The notes beneath the pieces were generated by a model, which worked only from the letters and a program-made list of their open reading frames with translations, was not told where the DNA came from and ran no database searches. Shown piece by piece: positions 300 through 46,886 of a stretch of DNA of 46,886 nt. The translations under genes and the position numbers were made by a program. Within the stretch, counting starts at the first letter, position 1; each line of letters opens with the position of its first letter. The stretch is taken from the IMG/VR virus record IMGVR_UViG_3300046505_000018, positions 1 through 46,886 of that record, one strand, 5' to 3'. The DNA is from a virus.

Positions 300-553
300 G
301 TGGCAAGGGCGACCGATACAGACCCGTGGACCAGAAGGCCTACGGCGACTCTTACGACAGAATCTTTGGCGTGAAACATAGGGTAAAATCCTACGGCACC
401 TGGCCACACGTCCGATGTTCCTGCGGGTGGAGTCTTGTGACTCTGTGGCCCCCCGAGATGGCCCGACAGGCTATTGAGAACCACTTGAAAGAGGTTGAAC
501 ATGGAAATGAAGGACAGCGGCGAGCGTCAGAAGTTTCAGACCGGAGCAGTTAG
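296..553 (+). CDS. Conserved small phage protein
   Basis: An 85-residue protein starting at an ATGA overlap; an in-frame upstream ATG at 272 is possible but would lie inside the membrane-protein gene. The N-terminus (MSGKGDRYRPVDQKAYGDSY) resembles a short conserved phage family with a GKGxxxRPxDxxxYxxxxDRIFG pattern, recognised from memory. CSCGW near the middle could be a partial metal site. The 3' end overlaps the next gene by 53 bases in another frame. Function unknown. Confidence 0.65.
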   Translation: MSGKGDRYRPVDQKAYGDSYDRIFGVKHRVKSYGTWPHVRCSCGWSLVTLWPPEMARQAIENHLKEVEHGNEGQRRASEVSDRSS

Positions 554-1619
554 GGACACAGCGACGGGGAAACCCCGGCCGGACCTGATCTCCCCCCACG
601 CGGCGATGCGTGAGGGCGTCTGGTTGGGCCTGGGTGCCGAGAAGTACCAGCCCCGGAACTGGGAGAAGGGGATTCCGATCTCCCGGTGCATCGCCTCGCT
701 GGAGCGGCACCTGGTAGCCTATAAGCTGGGGCTGCGGGACGAGGACCACATGGCCGCGGTGCGGACGAACGCCGGCTTCATCCTCCACTTCGAGGAGGAG
801 GTCAAGGCCGGCCGGCTGCCCGCTTCGCTGGATGACATGCCACACTACCTGAGCCAGCCGATGCAGACGCCGGCCGCCTGCTCGGACGACGCCAACATCA
901 AGCGTCGGCGTGACCTGCTCAAGCGGGTAGACAGCGGGGAGATGCTTAGCGACCGGGAGAACGGCGAACTCCACGTCAGTGGATGTGACAACGACGGGTG
1001 TGGTCTGGAGGGCAGGCTGTGCCCAGAGTGCATGGCCACTCTCAGCGAACGGATCGACAAGGGGGCCGCTCGGGTCATGGCGGGCCAGCAGAACGTCGCC
1101 ACCGGCTCCCCCGCCTGGTGGAATGAGGCCGATCCGAACGGGTCGATCCGTGGGATCAAGAAGCCCTTCACCGTCTACCTCTGCGGTCCGATAACGGGTG
1201 CCCCCATCGACCACAACTGGCGGAACTACGCGACTGACTTCCTGGTGAAGCACGGCATACGAACCCTGGACCCGCTTCGGGGTAAGAAATCCTGGAACAT
1301 CTCCAACCAGGGAATGAGTTACGAGGGCCAGTTGGCCTCGCCGGAGATGGCAGATCGGGATAACCTGGACGTGCAGGCGGCCGATCTAATCCTGGCCCAC
1401 TTCCCCTATGAGCCTCCGCGTCAGTCCATTGGCTCCCTGATGGAAATGGGTGGGGCCGCCGGCATTGGCGGGGCCAAGCCGAAGCCCATCGTTCTCTGTA
1501 CCGAGATTCCCGCGTTCAACGACCACCTTTTCACCCGCCGGTTCTGTATAATAGAACCTATGTTCCAGAAGGCTCTTGATCGTATCGTAGAGTGGTTTGG
1601 ACAGAGAGGACAAGCATGA
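501..1619 (+). CDS. DUF5664 (dATP/dGTP diphosphohydrolase N-terminal-like) fused to nucleoside 2-deoxyribosyltransferase-like domain
   Basis: A 372-residue two-domain protein. Residues about 10-105 match the DUF5664-type phage domain: TGAVRDTATGKPRPDLI, GAEKYQPRNWEKGIPISR, SLERHLVAYK and EDH followed by FEEE. The middle (residues about 130-185) has CDNDGCGLEGRLCPEC, possibly a zinc knuckle. Residues about 195-340 look like a nucleoside 2-deoxyribosyltransferase: VYLCGPITG near the start, an NW pair, DRDNLDVQAADLILAHF and then GSLMEMGGAAG. Known members of the two families act on deoxynucleotides or nucleosides, so a role in shaping the nucleotide pool is likely; no substrate can be read. ATG 501 is chosen because AGAGG lies 6-7 bases upstream; an in-frame TTG at 495 is less likely. 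Confidence 0.8.
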   Translation: MEMKDSGERQKFQTGAVRDTATGKPRPDLISPHAAMREGVWLGLGAEKYQPRNWEKGIPISRCIASLERHLVAYKLGLRDEDHMAAVRTNAGFILHFEEEVKAGRLPASLDDMPHYLSQPMQTPAACSDDANIKRRRDLLKRVDSGEMLSDRENGELHVSGCDNDGCGLEGRLCPECMATLSERIDKGAARVMAGQQNVATGSPAWWNEADPNGSIRGIKKPFTVYLCGPITGAPIDHNWRNYATDFLVKHGIRTLDPLRGKKSWNISNQGMSYEGQLASPEMADRDNLDVQAADLILAHFPYEPPRQSIGSLMEMGGAAGIGGAKPKPIVLCTEIPAFNDHLFTRRFCIIEPMFQKALDRIVEWFGQRGQA

Positions 1620-1801
1620 AGACATTACTCCCCAACTGGCTGTCACGGTGGCTCGCAGAGAAACTTTTTGGGGTCTACTACTGTACGAGATGCGGACAGT
1701 GGACCAAGACCCATCACATGAGGCAGACGGCCAACGGAACACCCGCCGGCTACTGGTGCCTGTGTAGCCGGCCGGCCCAGGCTCCCCAGGAGAAGAACTG
1801 A
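1616..1801 (+). CDS. Small zinc-ribbon-like protein
   Basis: A 61-residue protein preceded by AGAGAGGA and overlapping the previous gene by ATGA. It has a CTRC pair (about residues 21-24) and a WCLC pair (about residues 47-50), consistent with a four-cysteine zinc ribbon. The N-terminal LLPNWLSRWLAEKLFG segment looks amphipathic. It joins the following RNA ligase gene through a TGATG overlap. Function unknown. Confidence 0.6.
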   Translation: MKTLLPNWLSRWLAEKLFGVYYCTRCGQWTKTHHMRQTANGTPAGYWCLCSRPAQAPQEKN

Positions 1802-2340
1802 TGCCACCGGCTGAGTTCCAAGGCTTCGCCAAGATACACCGCCTGTCCCGGCCCTGCATCGTGACTGAGAAGATCGACGGAACGAACGCCCAGGTCTACA
1901 TCACCGAAGATGGGCAGATTATTGCCGGTAGTCGGACCCGGTGGATCACCCCGGAGAACGACAATTACGGATTTGCCCAGTGGGTCCAGGACCACAAAGA
2001 AGAACTACTTCTACTTGGCCCCGGACGGCATTTCGGAGAGTGGTGGGGCCAGGGGATTCAGCGGAACTACGGCATGACCGAGAAGCGGTTCAGTCTATTC
2101 AATGTGCAGCGGTGGACGGAGACGCCACCGCCGGGATGCTGTCATGTCGTCCCTATCCTAATGGCCGGGGATTTCTCGCAGCCCCTCGTGTGGTTGAAAG
2201 CAATGGGGCTATTGGAGAACGGGGGTAGTCTTGCGGCTCCTGGTTTTATGAAGCCCGAGGGGATCGTGGTCTACCATATCCAGGGTAATGTGGCCTTCAA
2301 AAAGACCTTTGAGAAGGATCAAGAAGGGAAGGGACAATAA
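1801..2340 (+). CDS. RNA ligase family protein
   Basis: A 179-residue protein with the nucleotidyltransferase motif I EKIDGTNAQVYI (lysine at about residue 22 is the expected adenylation site), a later GSRTRWI segment that fits the next ligase motif, a GEWWGQGI segment and EGIVVYHI near the end followed by FKKTF, which fits motifs IV and V of the RNA ligase / DRB0094-type family. It would join or repair RNA ends using ATP. At 179 residues it is a minimal catalytic core. It lies one small gene away from a metallophosphoesterase, a pairing seen in end-healing and sealing repair modules. Confidence 0.8.
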   Translation: MPPAEFQGFAKIHRLSRPCIVTEKIDGTNAQVYITEDGQIIAGSRTRWITPENDNYGFAQWVQDHKEELLLLGPGRHFGEWWGQGIQRNYGMTEKRFSLFNVQRWTETPPPGCCHVVPILMAGDFSQPLVWLKAMGLLENGGSLAAPGFMKPEGIVVYHIQGNVAFKKTFEKDQEGKGQ

Positions 2341-2495
2341 TGCAAGCCGCGGATAGGACGATTGATCTTCAACATCGTTTTGTGGAAGAAAGCCAGAAGT
2401 TAGGAGATTGCTTTCCAGAATGTAGAACCGAAAGCCAGGAGCGGATAGGGAATCTTCGTTTGCTCCTGGAGAAGATGCAGGAGGAGTTAGCATGA
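2340..2495 (+). CDS. Small hypothetical helical protein
   Basis: A 51-residue frame starting at the TAATG overlap with the RNA ligase stop and ending in an ATGA overlap with the phosphoesterase start. It is charged and probably helical (ends LRLLLEKMQEELA). The last codons contain the strong AGGAGG ribosome site of the next gene. The tight couplings on both sides are the main support that it is real; no family is recognised. Confidence 0.55.
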   Translation: MQAADRTIDLQHRFVEESQKLGDCFPECRTESQERIGNLRLLLEKMQEELA

Positions 2496-3352
2496 ATGCG
2501 TCGGGTAAAAGATATATCTGGCACCCCTCGCGGAGCGATGCCTTCAAACTGGTGTACTTCTCAGACATACATTGGTTGGCCGCTGCTTGTGCCGAGAAGG
2601 AGGTCATGCGGACGGTTGCCGAGATTCAGTCCGATCCCTTCACCTTCTGGATCGGTGGTGGCGACTACGGCGAGTTCATCGGCTTCGGTGACGCCAAGCG
2701 GTTCGACCCCGACGCCATCTCCGAGCGGGTATCGGTCAAGGACTTAGGCCGCCTCGGAAAGAAGACCTACGAGGGCATCCGGGACATCTTCGAGCCCATC
2801 AAGGACAAGTGCCTGGGCCTGATCGTTGGCAACCACGAGAAGCAGTACATGCGTCGGCAGCAGCAGGAAGACCTGCACGGCTGGCTCTGCACCGAACTTG
2901 GTGTCGCAGACCTGGGGTACTCTTGCTTCATGGACATCGTGTTCTGCCGCACAAGCCGGGCTAAGCGGCCGGCCCTACAGACTACGACCGCCCCGGAGAA
3001 CGCCAGCAAGTCCTTCCGCATCTGGTGCCATCACGGGGCCGGTGCGGCTGCGACCAAGGGCGGCAAGATCAACCGGCTGTCCAGCTTCATGCGGAACTTC
3101 GACGCGGACATCTTCTTCATGGGCCACGTCCACGACCAGATGGGGTGCCGGCTCCAGGTCTTGACCTCGAATGCGGACTGCACCAAGCTCTGCAACCGCG
3201 AGAAGATCGGCGTGGTCTCGGGGTCGTACCTCAAGACCTACGCTCAGGGCGTCATCAGCTACGGGGAACAGAAGGGCTACGAGCCGACGACCCTCGGGGC
3301 GGCCCATGTGATGATTAAGCCAGACACCCGAGAGGTTTGGGGGAGAGTATGA
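2492..3352 (+). CDS. Calcineurin-like metallophosphoesterase
   Basis: A 286-residue protein with the full metallophosphoesterase motif series: SDIHW (about residues 24-28), GGGDYGE (about 55-61), GNHEKQ (about 112-117), WCHHGAG (about 174-180) and GHVHDQ (about 207-212). These supply the two-metal site used to cleave phosphomonoesters or phosphodiesters. An AGGAGG site precedes the ATGA-coupled start. The neighbouring RNA ligase suggests action on RNA 2',3'-cyclic phosphates or 3' ends, but phage members of this family may also act on DNA ends or nucleotides, so the substrate is not established. Confidence 0.85.
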   Translation: MNASGKRYIWHPSRSDAFKLVYFSDIHWLAAACAEKEVMRTVAEIQSDPFTFWIGGGDYGEFIGFGDAKRFDPDAISERVSVKDLGRLGKKTYEGIRDIFEPIKDKCLGLIVGNHEKQYMRRQQQEDLHGWLCTELGVADLGYSCFMDIVFCRTSRAKRPALQTTTAPENASKSFRIWCHHGAGAAATKGGKINRLSSFMRNFDADIFFMGHVHDQMGCRLQVLTSNADCTKLCNREKIGVVSGSYLKTYAQGVISYGEQKGYEPTTLGAAHVMIKPDTREVWGRV

Positions 3353-34127: not shown

Positions 34128-34199
34128 AGGGCGATAGTTCAACTGGCAGAACCTTGGCATAGTAGCCGAGAAGTGTGGGTTCGACTCCCACTCGCCCAA
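34128..34199 (+). tRNA. tRNA-like gene with abnormal anticodon arm
   Basis: GGGCGA (34129-34134) pairs with TCGCCC (34192-34197); position 1:72 would be an A:A mismatch. TA, then D-stem GTTC/GAAC with loop AACTGGCA, and T-arm GTGGG-TTCGACT-CCCAC are all canonical. The anticodon arm is CTTGGC/GCCGAG around ATAGTA: a six-base loop (or eight with a five-bp stem), so no anticodon can be assigned; AGT is one reading. No CCA is encoded. A strong promoter precedes it and a ribosome site follows at once. Confidence 0.65.
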
Positions 34200-42304: not shown

Positions 42305-42664
42305 ATGTTCAAACCGCTACATTCCCTCGTGACCGTCATCCTCGACCCCAAGAAGGGTCGCACCGATGGCGGCCTGGTCATCCCCGATGTCTGCGAGGCT
42401 GCGTTCCGTACCGGCGTAGTCCGGGCCGTCGGCCCTGGTCCGACGATGGATGTACCATCGGAGGATGGGGGGGCCATGTACGCCGGCCTCCCGGTCAAGC
42501 CAGGCGACCATGTGGTGATCGGCGTCCAGAAGAACCAGGCTGGCCGGCCGGTCAACCTGGGTGGCATGATCGACGACGATGGCGTCGAGGTCGTCCTGGT
42601 CAACATCCAGGACATCTGGGGCACCATCGACAAGGCCCCGACTGATCTTGCCATCGTGAACTAG
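42305..42664 (+). CDS. GroES-like co-chaperonin
   Basis: A 119-residue protein. FKPLHSLVTVILDPKKGRTD, then GGLVIPDVCEA, GVVRAVGPGPTMD and VKPGDHVVIG follow the GroES/Cpn10 order (PLxDRVxV, GGIxIPD, VxAVGxG, V(K)xGDxV), ending with a strand pair. The region between GGLVIPD and the glycine motif corresponds to the end of the mobile loop. GGAGG and ATG at good spacing. It would cap the host chaperonin, probably to fold capsid or other large phage proteins, like T4 gp31. Confidence 0.8.
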   Translation: MFKPLHSLVTVILDPKKGRTDGGLVIPDVCEAAFRTGVVRAVGPGPTMDVPSEDGGAMYAGLPVKPGDHVVIGVQKNQAGRPVNLGGMIDDDGVEVVLVNIQDIWGTIDKAPTDLAIVN

Positions 42665-43708: not shown

Positions 43709-43800
43709 TGACCCGCCTCAAGATCGGGTCACAGGCAGGGTGCGGGCTCTGGGTGCCTAGCTGGCGGACGCACTAGGAGAACACCCATCCCGGCCCTGCC
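43709..43800 (+). ncRNA. Hairpin plus long rod-shaped RNA structure
   Basis: GACCCG/CGGGTC (43710-43730) is followed by a rod from 43734 to 43800 with stems GGCAGGG/CCCTGCC, CGGG/CCCG, TGGGTG/CACCCA and an apical CCTAG/CTAGG, 22 pairs in all. Only small bulges interrupt it. There is no T-loop sequence, so it is not a tRNA. The next gene's TTGGAG starts four bases later. Confidence 0.65.
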
Positions 43801-43815
43801 ACATTGGAGAACACA

Positions 43816-44007: not shown

Positions 44008-44123
44008 CCGGCGGTAGCCCAACGGGAGAGGCAGCCTGACAAGGGAGAGTGGCCAGGACGGAACCACCGAATACTCGGTCGTGTCCGTATCGCCTAGTGT
44101 GGGTTCAAATCCCACCCGCCGTA
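44008..44123 (+). tRNA. Oversized tRNA-like element (about 115 bases)
   Basis: CGGCGG (44009-44014) pairs with CCGCCG (44116-44121). TA and D-arm GCCCAACGGGAGAGGC are followed by T-arm GTGGG-TTCAAAT-CCCAC (44099-44115). The 66 bases between them are too long for a normal anticodon and variable arm and contain ACCGA-ATAC-TCGGT inside GGAC/GTCC. No anticodon can be assigned. It could be an intron-bearing tRNA or a tRNA mimic. Position 1:72 is again mismatched (C:T). Confidence 0.5.
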
Positions 44124-46698: not shown

Positions 46699-46886
46699 CA
46701 CTTAGAGAGTTCATGGCCCGGCGTCAGATGAGTAGCCGTCGTTCCCCCTCTCTACATCGAGAGATGTTGCACGAGATCAGTCAGGCGGCATGGGCAACCT
46801 TCGAGGAAGGAGAGCTCCTGGAGGTCAAGAAGGGGAGGCTGGAGGCGATGTTCACCGCCCTTATCCACCTCAACCAGAGGGCCTTG
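46695..46886 (+). CDS. Small hypothetical protein, N-terminal part (continues at 1-162)
   Basis: ATGA overlap with the preceding gene. The frame (MTLREFMARRQMSSRRSPSL) is open to the window end and continues in frame at base 136 of the left end through the terminal repeat, giving about 73 residues. Basic N-terminus; function unknown. It shows that the two window ends belong together. Confidence 0.75.
   Translation, partial: MTLREFMARRQMSSRRSPSLHREMLHEISQAAWATFEEGELLEVKKGRLEAMFTALIHLNQRAL
46752..46886. repeat. Terminal direct repeat, right copy
   Basis: Identical to 1-135 except A46878 versus G127. See the left copy. Confidence 0.95.

Follow-up and report, generated by a model that had tools for sequence, protein, structure and literature searches.

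A predicted compact RNA ligase beside a separately inherited phosphoesterase in a phage genome

VapC/PIN toxins are nucleases that leave 3′-OH and 5′-phosphate ends. The defense nuclease AriB of PARIS leaves a 3′-OH, with a 5′-phosphate expected opposite (PMC12409363). Phage Rnl ligases are treated as tRNA-repair enzymes, and phage ATP-grasp RNA ligases are described as requiring a 5′-phosphate and a 3′-OH, with kinases, phosphatases and RlaP as partners (PMC7824862). Here, we analyzed DNA of a virus of bacteria, the 46,886-base IMG/VR record IMGVR_UViG_3300046505_000018 (the window, meaning this whole stretch), in which a predicted RNA ligase and a calcineurin-type metallophosphoesterase (MPE) are separated by a 51-residue gene. 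An earlier note on this DNA had taken the two enzymes, together with tRNA-like RNAs, for a possible RNA-repair or anticodon-nuclease countermeasure. We found that ligase and MPE do not travel together. With moderate confidence, we favor a ligase that is a horizontally acquired, stand-alone accessory enzyme for sealing RNA nicks, most likely rejoining RNA cut by defense nucleases, and an MPE that is a separate core enzyme.

The compact ligase and its relatives

The open reading frames (ORFs) reported earlier for the ligase, the 51-residue gene and MPE were all present, and the motifs EKIDGTNAQ, SDIH, GNHE and GHVH could be seen in the enzymes. The ligase matched the Pfam family RNA_ligase (PF09414; E 8.5e-12, 46 bits against a cut-off of 27) and the PHROG RNA ligase family phrog_548 (E 4.7e-33). 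Its motif I is K24-x-D26-G. We aligned the window ligase with those of 36 of 45 related loci (duplicates, truncated copies, L027 and L042 were omitted); G27, E80, E153, G154 and K167 were present in all 37 sequences, and K24, D26 and R45 in at least 90%. K24, D26, E80, E153 and K167 belong to the nucleotidyltransferase motifs, K24 being the catalytic lysine. An AlphaFold2 (AF2) model of the protein (predicted local distance difference test, pLDDT, 94.7) gave VIA Z values of 12.8 to Naegleria RNA ligase, 12.6 to T4 Rnl2 and about 10.5 to DNA ligases. Foldseek placed the same RNA ligases in its top ranks, and the ligase-family profile recovered T4 Rnl2 at E 6.5e-8. The C-terminus falls just past motif V, and in the alignment only L051 extends by the length of a further domain. 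Judged by sequence and predicted fold, the protein is an Rnl2-like compact RNA ligase and not a canonical Rnl2.

The compact ligase occurred in 92 of 50,697 phage records at E ≤ 1e-5; a pattern search returned the 45 IMG/VR loci, and a genome collection 78 loci. Among the 40 matches listed were compact ligases of Rhizobium, Caulobacter and Mycobacterium phages, 46–60% identical over 96–99% of the sequence. The ligase is a further member of this already known kind of compact RNA ligase. Its closest relative found, 69% identical, lies on contig L008; of the other 11 window proteins tested, none matched there. Elsewhere, a relative at L012:4998-5528 has a methionine at the position of the catalytic lysine (TEMIDGTN) and is possibly an inactive homologue.

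Some relatives keep company with RNA-repair enzymes. On L150, a contig of a cyanobacterial metagenome-assembled genome, consecutive genes encode a kinase plus HAD-PNKP protein, an Rnl1-type ligase and a compact ligase 51% identical to that of the window. Rnl1 and RlaP lie upstream of the compact ligase at L172, and Rnl1 lies nearby at L166. We scanned for RlaP, HAD-PNKP and Rnl1 in 38 ligase records plus five named ones, 21 MPE-only records, the window and four of its six close relatives (described below). RlaP was present in three of the 43 ligase records (G016, G046 and Caulobacter phage CcrBL9) and HAD-PNKP in one (CcrBL9); Rnl1 exceeded its cut-off in one (CcrBL9), with a weak match in G039. 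None of the three was found in the 21 MPE-only records. The window had no RlaP, Rnl1, HAD-PNKP (PF25109) or AAA_33 kinase (PF13671, whose scan covered the same records minus CcrBL9), nor any 5′ polynucleotide kinase or 3′ phosphatase of this type in the Pfam scans of its ORFs. Overall, some members of the ligase family belong with RNA repair, and most stand alone. The idea of RNA repair or a nuclease countermeasure is therefore credible for the ligase by itself, whose relatives lie near Pnkp, Rnl1 and RlaP, but not for a pair with the phosphoesterase.

Two further loci show other arrangements. In CcrBL9 (NC_048047.1; L207 and L210), the repair set of HAD-PNKP gene, Rnl1, RlaP and compact ligase is dispersed; HOU02_gp517, annotated as an "ATPase", matches the PNKP phosphatase family, and we rejected gp509 as the RlaP. 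In Rhizobium phage RHph_X66 (L076), a gene matching deoxyribonucleoside monophosphate (dNMP) phosphatase PHROGs directly follows the compact ligase, and an RtcB ligase lies ~5 kb downstream.

Separate inheritance and possible roles

MPE relatives at 74–78% identity were found in six IMG/VR records (G001–G006, loci L053–L059), and none of the six carries the ligase, as judged by whole-record protein searches and tblastn of the flanks. The same dGTPase/deoxyribosyltransferase gene precedes MPE in all six. Two of these records are only 10.7 and 11.0 kb long, one of them ending inside MPE; the interval from dGTPase gene to MPE is present in every one. Relatives and window have primase, exonuclease and polymerase genes in common, within each record's reach, as well as virion genes in the longer records. 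A primase search for more members of this phage group returned three records, all already known.

The same separation was seen more widely. Of 28 MPE loci obtained with the family alignment, one had a ligase in the flanking sequence retrieved (up to 6 kb), in the same record as ligase locus L021; the ligase-bearing MPE record, G020, has both families ~2 kb apart. The MPE family phrog_7339 was found in five of 50 ligase records at E ≤ 0.001, strongly in G020, G031 and G032, and G031 and G032 are near-duplicates with identical MPEs. The 78 genomic ligase loci gave one borderline MPE match (E 9.7e-4) and, in bacterial genomes, no conserved ligase neighborhood (the ligase ORF was recovered at 75 of the 78, and the largest neighbor cluster spanned six loci). 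An MPE search of plasmids gave no matches.

We then asked which genes belong to which enzyme. In the ligase-less records G001, G003 and G004, ORFs of 62, 58 and 58 residues overlap the MPE start in the same place as the 51-residue gene; there is no counterpart at the MPE start in G002, G005 and G006, and the 51-residue ORF had no match or relatives in Pfam, PHROG or relative searches. By position, the 51-residue gene goes with MPE and not with the ligase. Upstream of the ligase, a 61-residue ORF was found in this record only, with no match in the six relatives, in phages (tblastn, E ≤ 1) or in viral contigs. Since the 51-residue gene sides with MPE, the insertion would most simply comprise the 61-residue ORF and the ligase. 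A link between the ligase and its small neighbors was considered and dropped, as no relatives of either small ORF were found. The neighbor alignments took in 144 ORFs from 38 of the 45 ligase loci and 87 of 116 ORFs on the MPE side (L108–L110 and several small or opposite-strand ORFs were omitted; L104 had no clean ORF).

A dedicated ligase–MPE repair pair is unlikely on this evidence. Such a two-gene system, in which MPE would remove a 2′,3′-cyclic phosphate from cut RNA before the ligase seals it, draws on the adjacency of the two genes, which overlap via the 51-residue gene, and on the co-occurrence in G020. It also has chemical precedent: the calcineurin-type phosphatase of CthPnkp performs such a reaction, the GNH[D/E] histidine being needed for 2′,3′-cAMP hydrolysis (PMC3407115), and in a few jumbo phages calcineurin-like domains may fill the role of RNA-end phosphatase (PMC7824862). 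Nevertheless, we consider it improbable, given the ligase's absence from all six close MPE relatives, its presence near one of 28 MPE loci and the single borderline MPE match among genomic ligase loci; moreover, we found no 5′ kinase in the window, and metal-independent nucleases would leave a 5′-OH (PMC7824862). The translational coupling proposed earlier fared in part. The overlaps are real, being 1 nt (TAATG) between ligase and 51-residue gene and 4 nt (ATGA) between the latter and MPE, and every junction from the dGTPase gene through MPE is a start/stop overlap. Coupling may follow from them, but overlaps are routine in this genome, occurring in 21 of 39 tabulated adjacent same-strand gene pairs (exactly 1 or 4 nt in 14), and are thus no special sign of a pair.

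MPE itself matched phrog_7339 at E 7.1e-18, a family labeled "DNA repair exonuclease" in PHROG. Its Pfam Metallophos score of 18.3 is below the curated cut-off of 21.5, and 19 of 22 aligned MPE relatives match Metallophos at E ≤ 1. This alignment (the window, four close relatives, 16 of 20 distant ones with L096 and L108–L110 omitted, and L021) has 14 invariant columns, including D25, H27, D58, N114, H115, H181, H212 and H214, and MPE contains the calcineurin-type metal-ligand motif set DxH, GD, GNH[D/E], H and GHxH. In hhalign, the MPE profile gave probabilities of 93% to T4 gp47 (N-terminal 98 residues), 33% to CpdA, 4% to E. coli SbcD and 1% to ApaH. NCBIfam gave no family match and a PDB profile search nothing below E 0.17; the AF2 model, made from five close sequences, had a pLDDT of 34.7 and was not used for fold searches. 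A scan of 66 window ORFs yielded 24 Pfam families, with no SbcC family among them; one ORF matched AAA_29 (E 7.9e-4). At L092, where MPE is 52% identical, a dGTP-diphosphohydrolase match lies close by. MPE is a core gene of the lineage, separate from the ligase, and, judging by its conserved dGTPase-gene neighbor, it probably works on nucleotides or phage DNA.

For the ligase, horizontal acquisition is suggested by its absence from the six syntenic relatives and by its 69% identical relative on the otherwise non-matching contig L008. Together with the 61-residue ORF, it would have been inserted into a conserved nucleotide-metabolism operon, between the dGTPase/deoxyribosyltransferase gene and MPE. 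The enzyme would take AMP onto Lys24, pass it to a 5′-phosphate and then join this end to a 3′-OH, to the benefit of a phage whose tRNA or other RNA had been cut by host two-metal-ion defense nucleases. No kinase or phosphatase would be needed, because such nucleases leave 3′-OH/5′-phosphate ends; by analogy, a lone ligase would fit AriB-type cuts without helper enzymes. MPE would meanwhile have a separate function next to the dGTPase, probably acting on nucleotides or phage DNA.

Several observations weigh against this reading. The ligase did not reach the NCBIfam Rnl2 equivalog TIGR02307 (23.6 versus 197.15 bits). RlaP was not found in 40 of 43 ligase records, nor were HAD-Pnkp and above-cut-off Rnl1 in 42 of 43, so the association with repair comes from few loci. 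Among the first 25 of 49 neighbor families of the ligase genes, replication and nucleotide genes are mixed, which also fits a DNA-linked role. Finally, the commoner carriage of tRNA genes by ligase records, which in itself would favor the reading (19 of 42, against three of 21 MPE-only records; p=0.024), is confounded by record length (medians 41.5 versus 30.7 kb) and relatedness; within records of 24–55 kb, the counts were 13 of 24 and three of 16 (p=0.047). The ligase side of this count covered 38 of 45 records (G019, G028, G029, G032, G035, G041 and G051 were omitted, G041 being a distinct, N-terminally altered ligase copy) plus four of the five named ones. The MPE side covered 21 of 28, the other seven being the six close relatives and G020, which carries a ligase.

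The neighbors raise the alternative of a ligase for DNA replication or nucleotide metabolism, whose targets would be RNA/DNA nicks arising in replication and not defense-cut RNA. They are often replication or nucleotide genes, and Pfam scans of window ORFs (66 of 117, mostly overlapping alternative-frame ORFs being omitted, plus the 51-residue ORF and the primase taken from its probable ATG) showed no DNA ligase family. We nonetheless regard this role as doubtful, as the best structural matches are to nick-sealing RNA ligases, ahead of DNA ligases (Z 12.8 versus about 10.5), and some relatives sit in Pnkp/Rnl1/RlaP settings. There is likewise little to recommend a ligase that arrived recently and has no selected function here: it is found in one of seven related records, but its frame is open, the catalytic-motif residues K24, D26, R45, E80, E153 and K167 are kept, and the same compact architecture recurs in many unrelated phages.

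tRNA-like RNAs and gene layout

The tRNA-like RNAs had been described as lying alongside the enzyme genes. This was not borne out; the two elements are ~14.4 kb (34128) and ~4.4 kb (44008) from the ligase locus even when the record is joined through its end repeat. The last 135 bases (46752-46886) repeat the first 135 (1-135) with one mismatch, so the phage genome is probably close to complete and circularly assembled, its right end continuing into its left. Coordinates of the features are collected in Table 1.

Table 1. Features of the window discussed in the text
Feature	Position	Strand	Basis
dATP/dGTP diphosphohydrolase-N + nucleoside 2-deoxyribosyltransferase-like gene	495-1619	+	PF18909 E 7.9e-18, PF05014 E 2.2e-6
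61-residue small ORF, Zn-ribbon-like	1616-1801	+	Zn-ribbon reading from the cysteine pattern in the sequence
Predicted compact Rnl2-like ATP-dependent RNA ligase, 179 residues, nucleotidyltransferase domain only	1801-2340	+	PF09414, phrog_548, predicted fold
51-residue small ORF	2340-2495	+	ORF call; position with MPE
Calcineurin-type metallophosphoesterase (MPE), 286 residues	2492-3352	+	phrog_7339; SDIH / GNHE / GHVH motifs
tRNA-like element, 72 nt	34128-34199	+	RF00005 43.2 bits; ARAGORN "tRNA-???"
GroES-like co-chaperonin (Cpn10) gene, inside replication gene cluster	42305-42664		tblastn matches in 6/6 relatives
tRNA-like element, 116 nt	44008-44123	+	RF00005 29.2 bits, cut-off 29

The 61-residue ORF also has a longer, GTG-start form (1592-1801).

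The 116-nt element has canonical acceptor, D and T arms. Where a 5-bp anticodon stem with a 7-nt loop would be expected, it instead has 66 nt with a composite hairpin (constrained fold, −44.1 kcal/mol). The primase ATG (44135) follows 11 nt further on. An intron reading of this element was not supported, as ARAGORN with introns allowed gave no tRNA. In the 72-nt element, the anticodon loop has 8 nt (or 6 nt).

Each of the six relatives had exactly one RF00005 match, of 71–75 nt. In G003, G004 and G005 it lies close to the primase gene, 12–18 nt upstream, whereas in G001, G002 and G006 the upstream distance is 394 to about 1,100 nt. Inspected by eye, the anticodon arms have a C at position 33 in G003 and G004, AAU with a mismatched stem in G001, G002 and G006, and ACA with a mismatch in G005. 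Across the seven related phages, the primase-side element is kept, its sequence and anticodon vary, and its anticodon arm is always irregular; blastn of both window elements against the six relatives gave no match, whereas the RF00005 family search did find elements. Because every ligase-less relative has one, the tRNA-like RNAs are not tied to the ligase as had been proposed, and we judge both window elements to lie outside any ligase–MPE system. Anticodon-loop changes in phage tRNAs have been proposed as evasion of anticodon nucleases (PMC10264068); by analogy, such evasion would also fit the elements of the window and its relatives.

It is very unlikely that the targets of the ligase are the tRNA-like RNAs of the phage itself, with the 116-nt one being spliced or decoys being kept intact: the sole ligase record of the group is the sole one with an enlarged primase-side element (116 versus 71–75 nt), and an element of 122 nt occurs in another ligase record, G016, but n = 2, odd anticodon arms also occur in the elements of ligase-less relatives, ARAGORN's intron mode was negative, no exon pair restored an anticodon stem by eye, and family scans of the window ORFs gave no splicing endonuclease. 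We give just as little weight to a version in which the anticodon arm of the primase-side element is selected to be of no use in translation (C33, AAU/ACA, 8-nt loop, 66-nt replacement), the RNA being a decoy or sink for anticodon nucleases, and the ligase was recruited to reseal or mature the form with the 66-nt insert.

Further structures were noted in passing. The element of G016, a ligase-bearing record with 33 counted tRNA matches, is at L115 (G016:C1:88498-88619, minus strand); its CCA end is encoded, and its D and T arms are separated by ~50 nt more than usual. By eye, a long imperfect hairpin (GGCAGGG...CCCTGCC, with CCTAG/CTAGG inside) at 43735-43803 of the window occupies the gap that holds the tRNA-like element in G001, G002 and G006, and a CCTAGGC/GCCTAGG hairpin lies just before the 34128 element. 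The series of tRNA-like RNAs with irregular anticodon arms is the oddest remainder of this analysis and the part most deserving of separate study.

Comparison with known systems

T4 RNA ligase 2 and Naegleria RNA ligase, of the nick-sealing Rnl2-like group (PF09414), have the KxDG nucleotidyltransferase fold and motifs in common with the window ligase. However, the latter has only ~180 residues, ends after motif V and falls far under the TIGR02307 cut-off; full-length T4 Rnl2 has an extra C-terminal domain, which is without counterpart here. The compact ligases of Rhizobium, Caulobacter and Mycobacterium phages are the same protein with other neighbors (dNMP phosphatase, ThyX, ribonucleotide reductase, DNA methylase).

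The T4-type Pnkp/ligase, bacterial Pnkp-Rnl-Hen1 and CthPnkp repair systems share an ATP-dependent RNA ligase with the window, and CthPnkp, too, has a phosphatase of the metallo-dependent superfamily (PMC3407115). In contrast to T4-type and Pnkp repair, no kinase, HAD-Pnkp, RlaP or Rnl1 was found in the window, and its phosphoesterase is not co-inherited with the ligase. The Mre11/SbcD nucleases, including T4 gp47, have calcineurin-type motifs in common with MPE, and the hhalign probability to the gp47 N-terminus is 93; MPE is nevertheless short, has GNHE instead of GNHD, and reaches a probability of 4 to E. coli SbcD.

In a compact phage operon, neither adjacency nor an overlapping start is evidence that two genes share a pathway. 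Here, six syntenic relatives show the absence of the ligase directly and remove a tempting but weak pair. They lead to a cleaner question: whether the lone compact ligases of many phages serve against defense nucleases such as AriB of PARIS or VapC/PIN toxins, whose 3′-OH/5′-phosphate ends would call for no end-healing enzymes.

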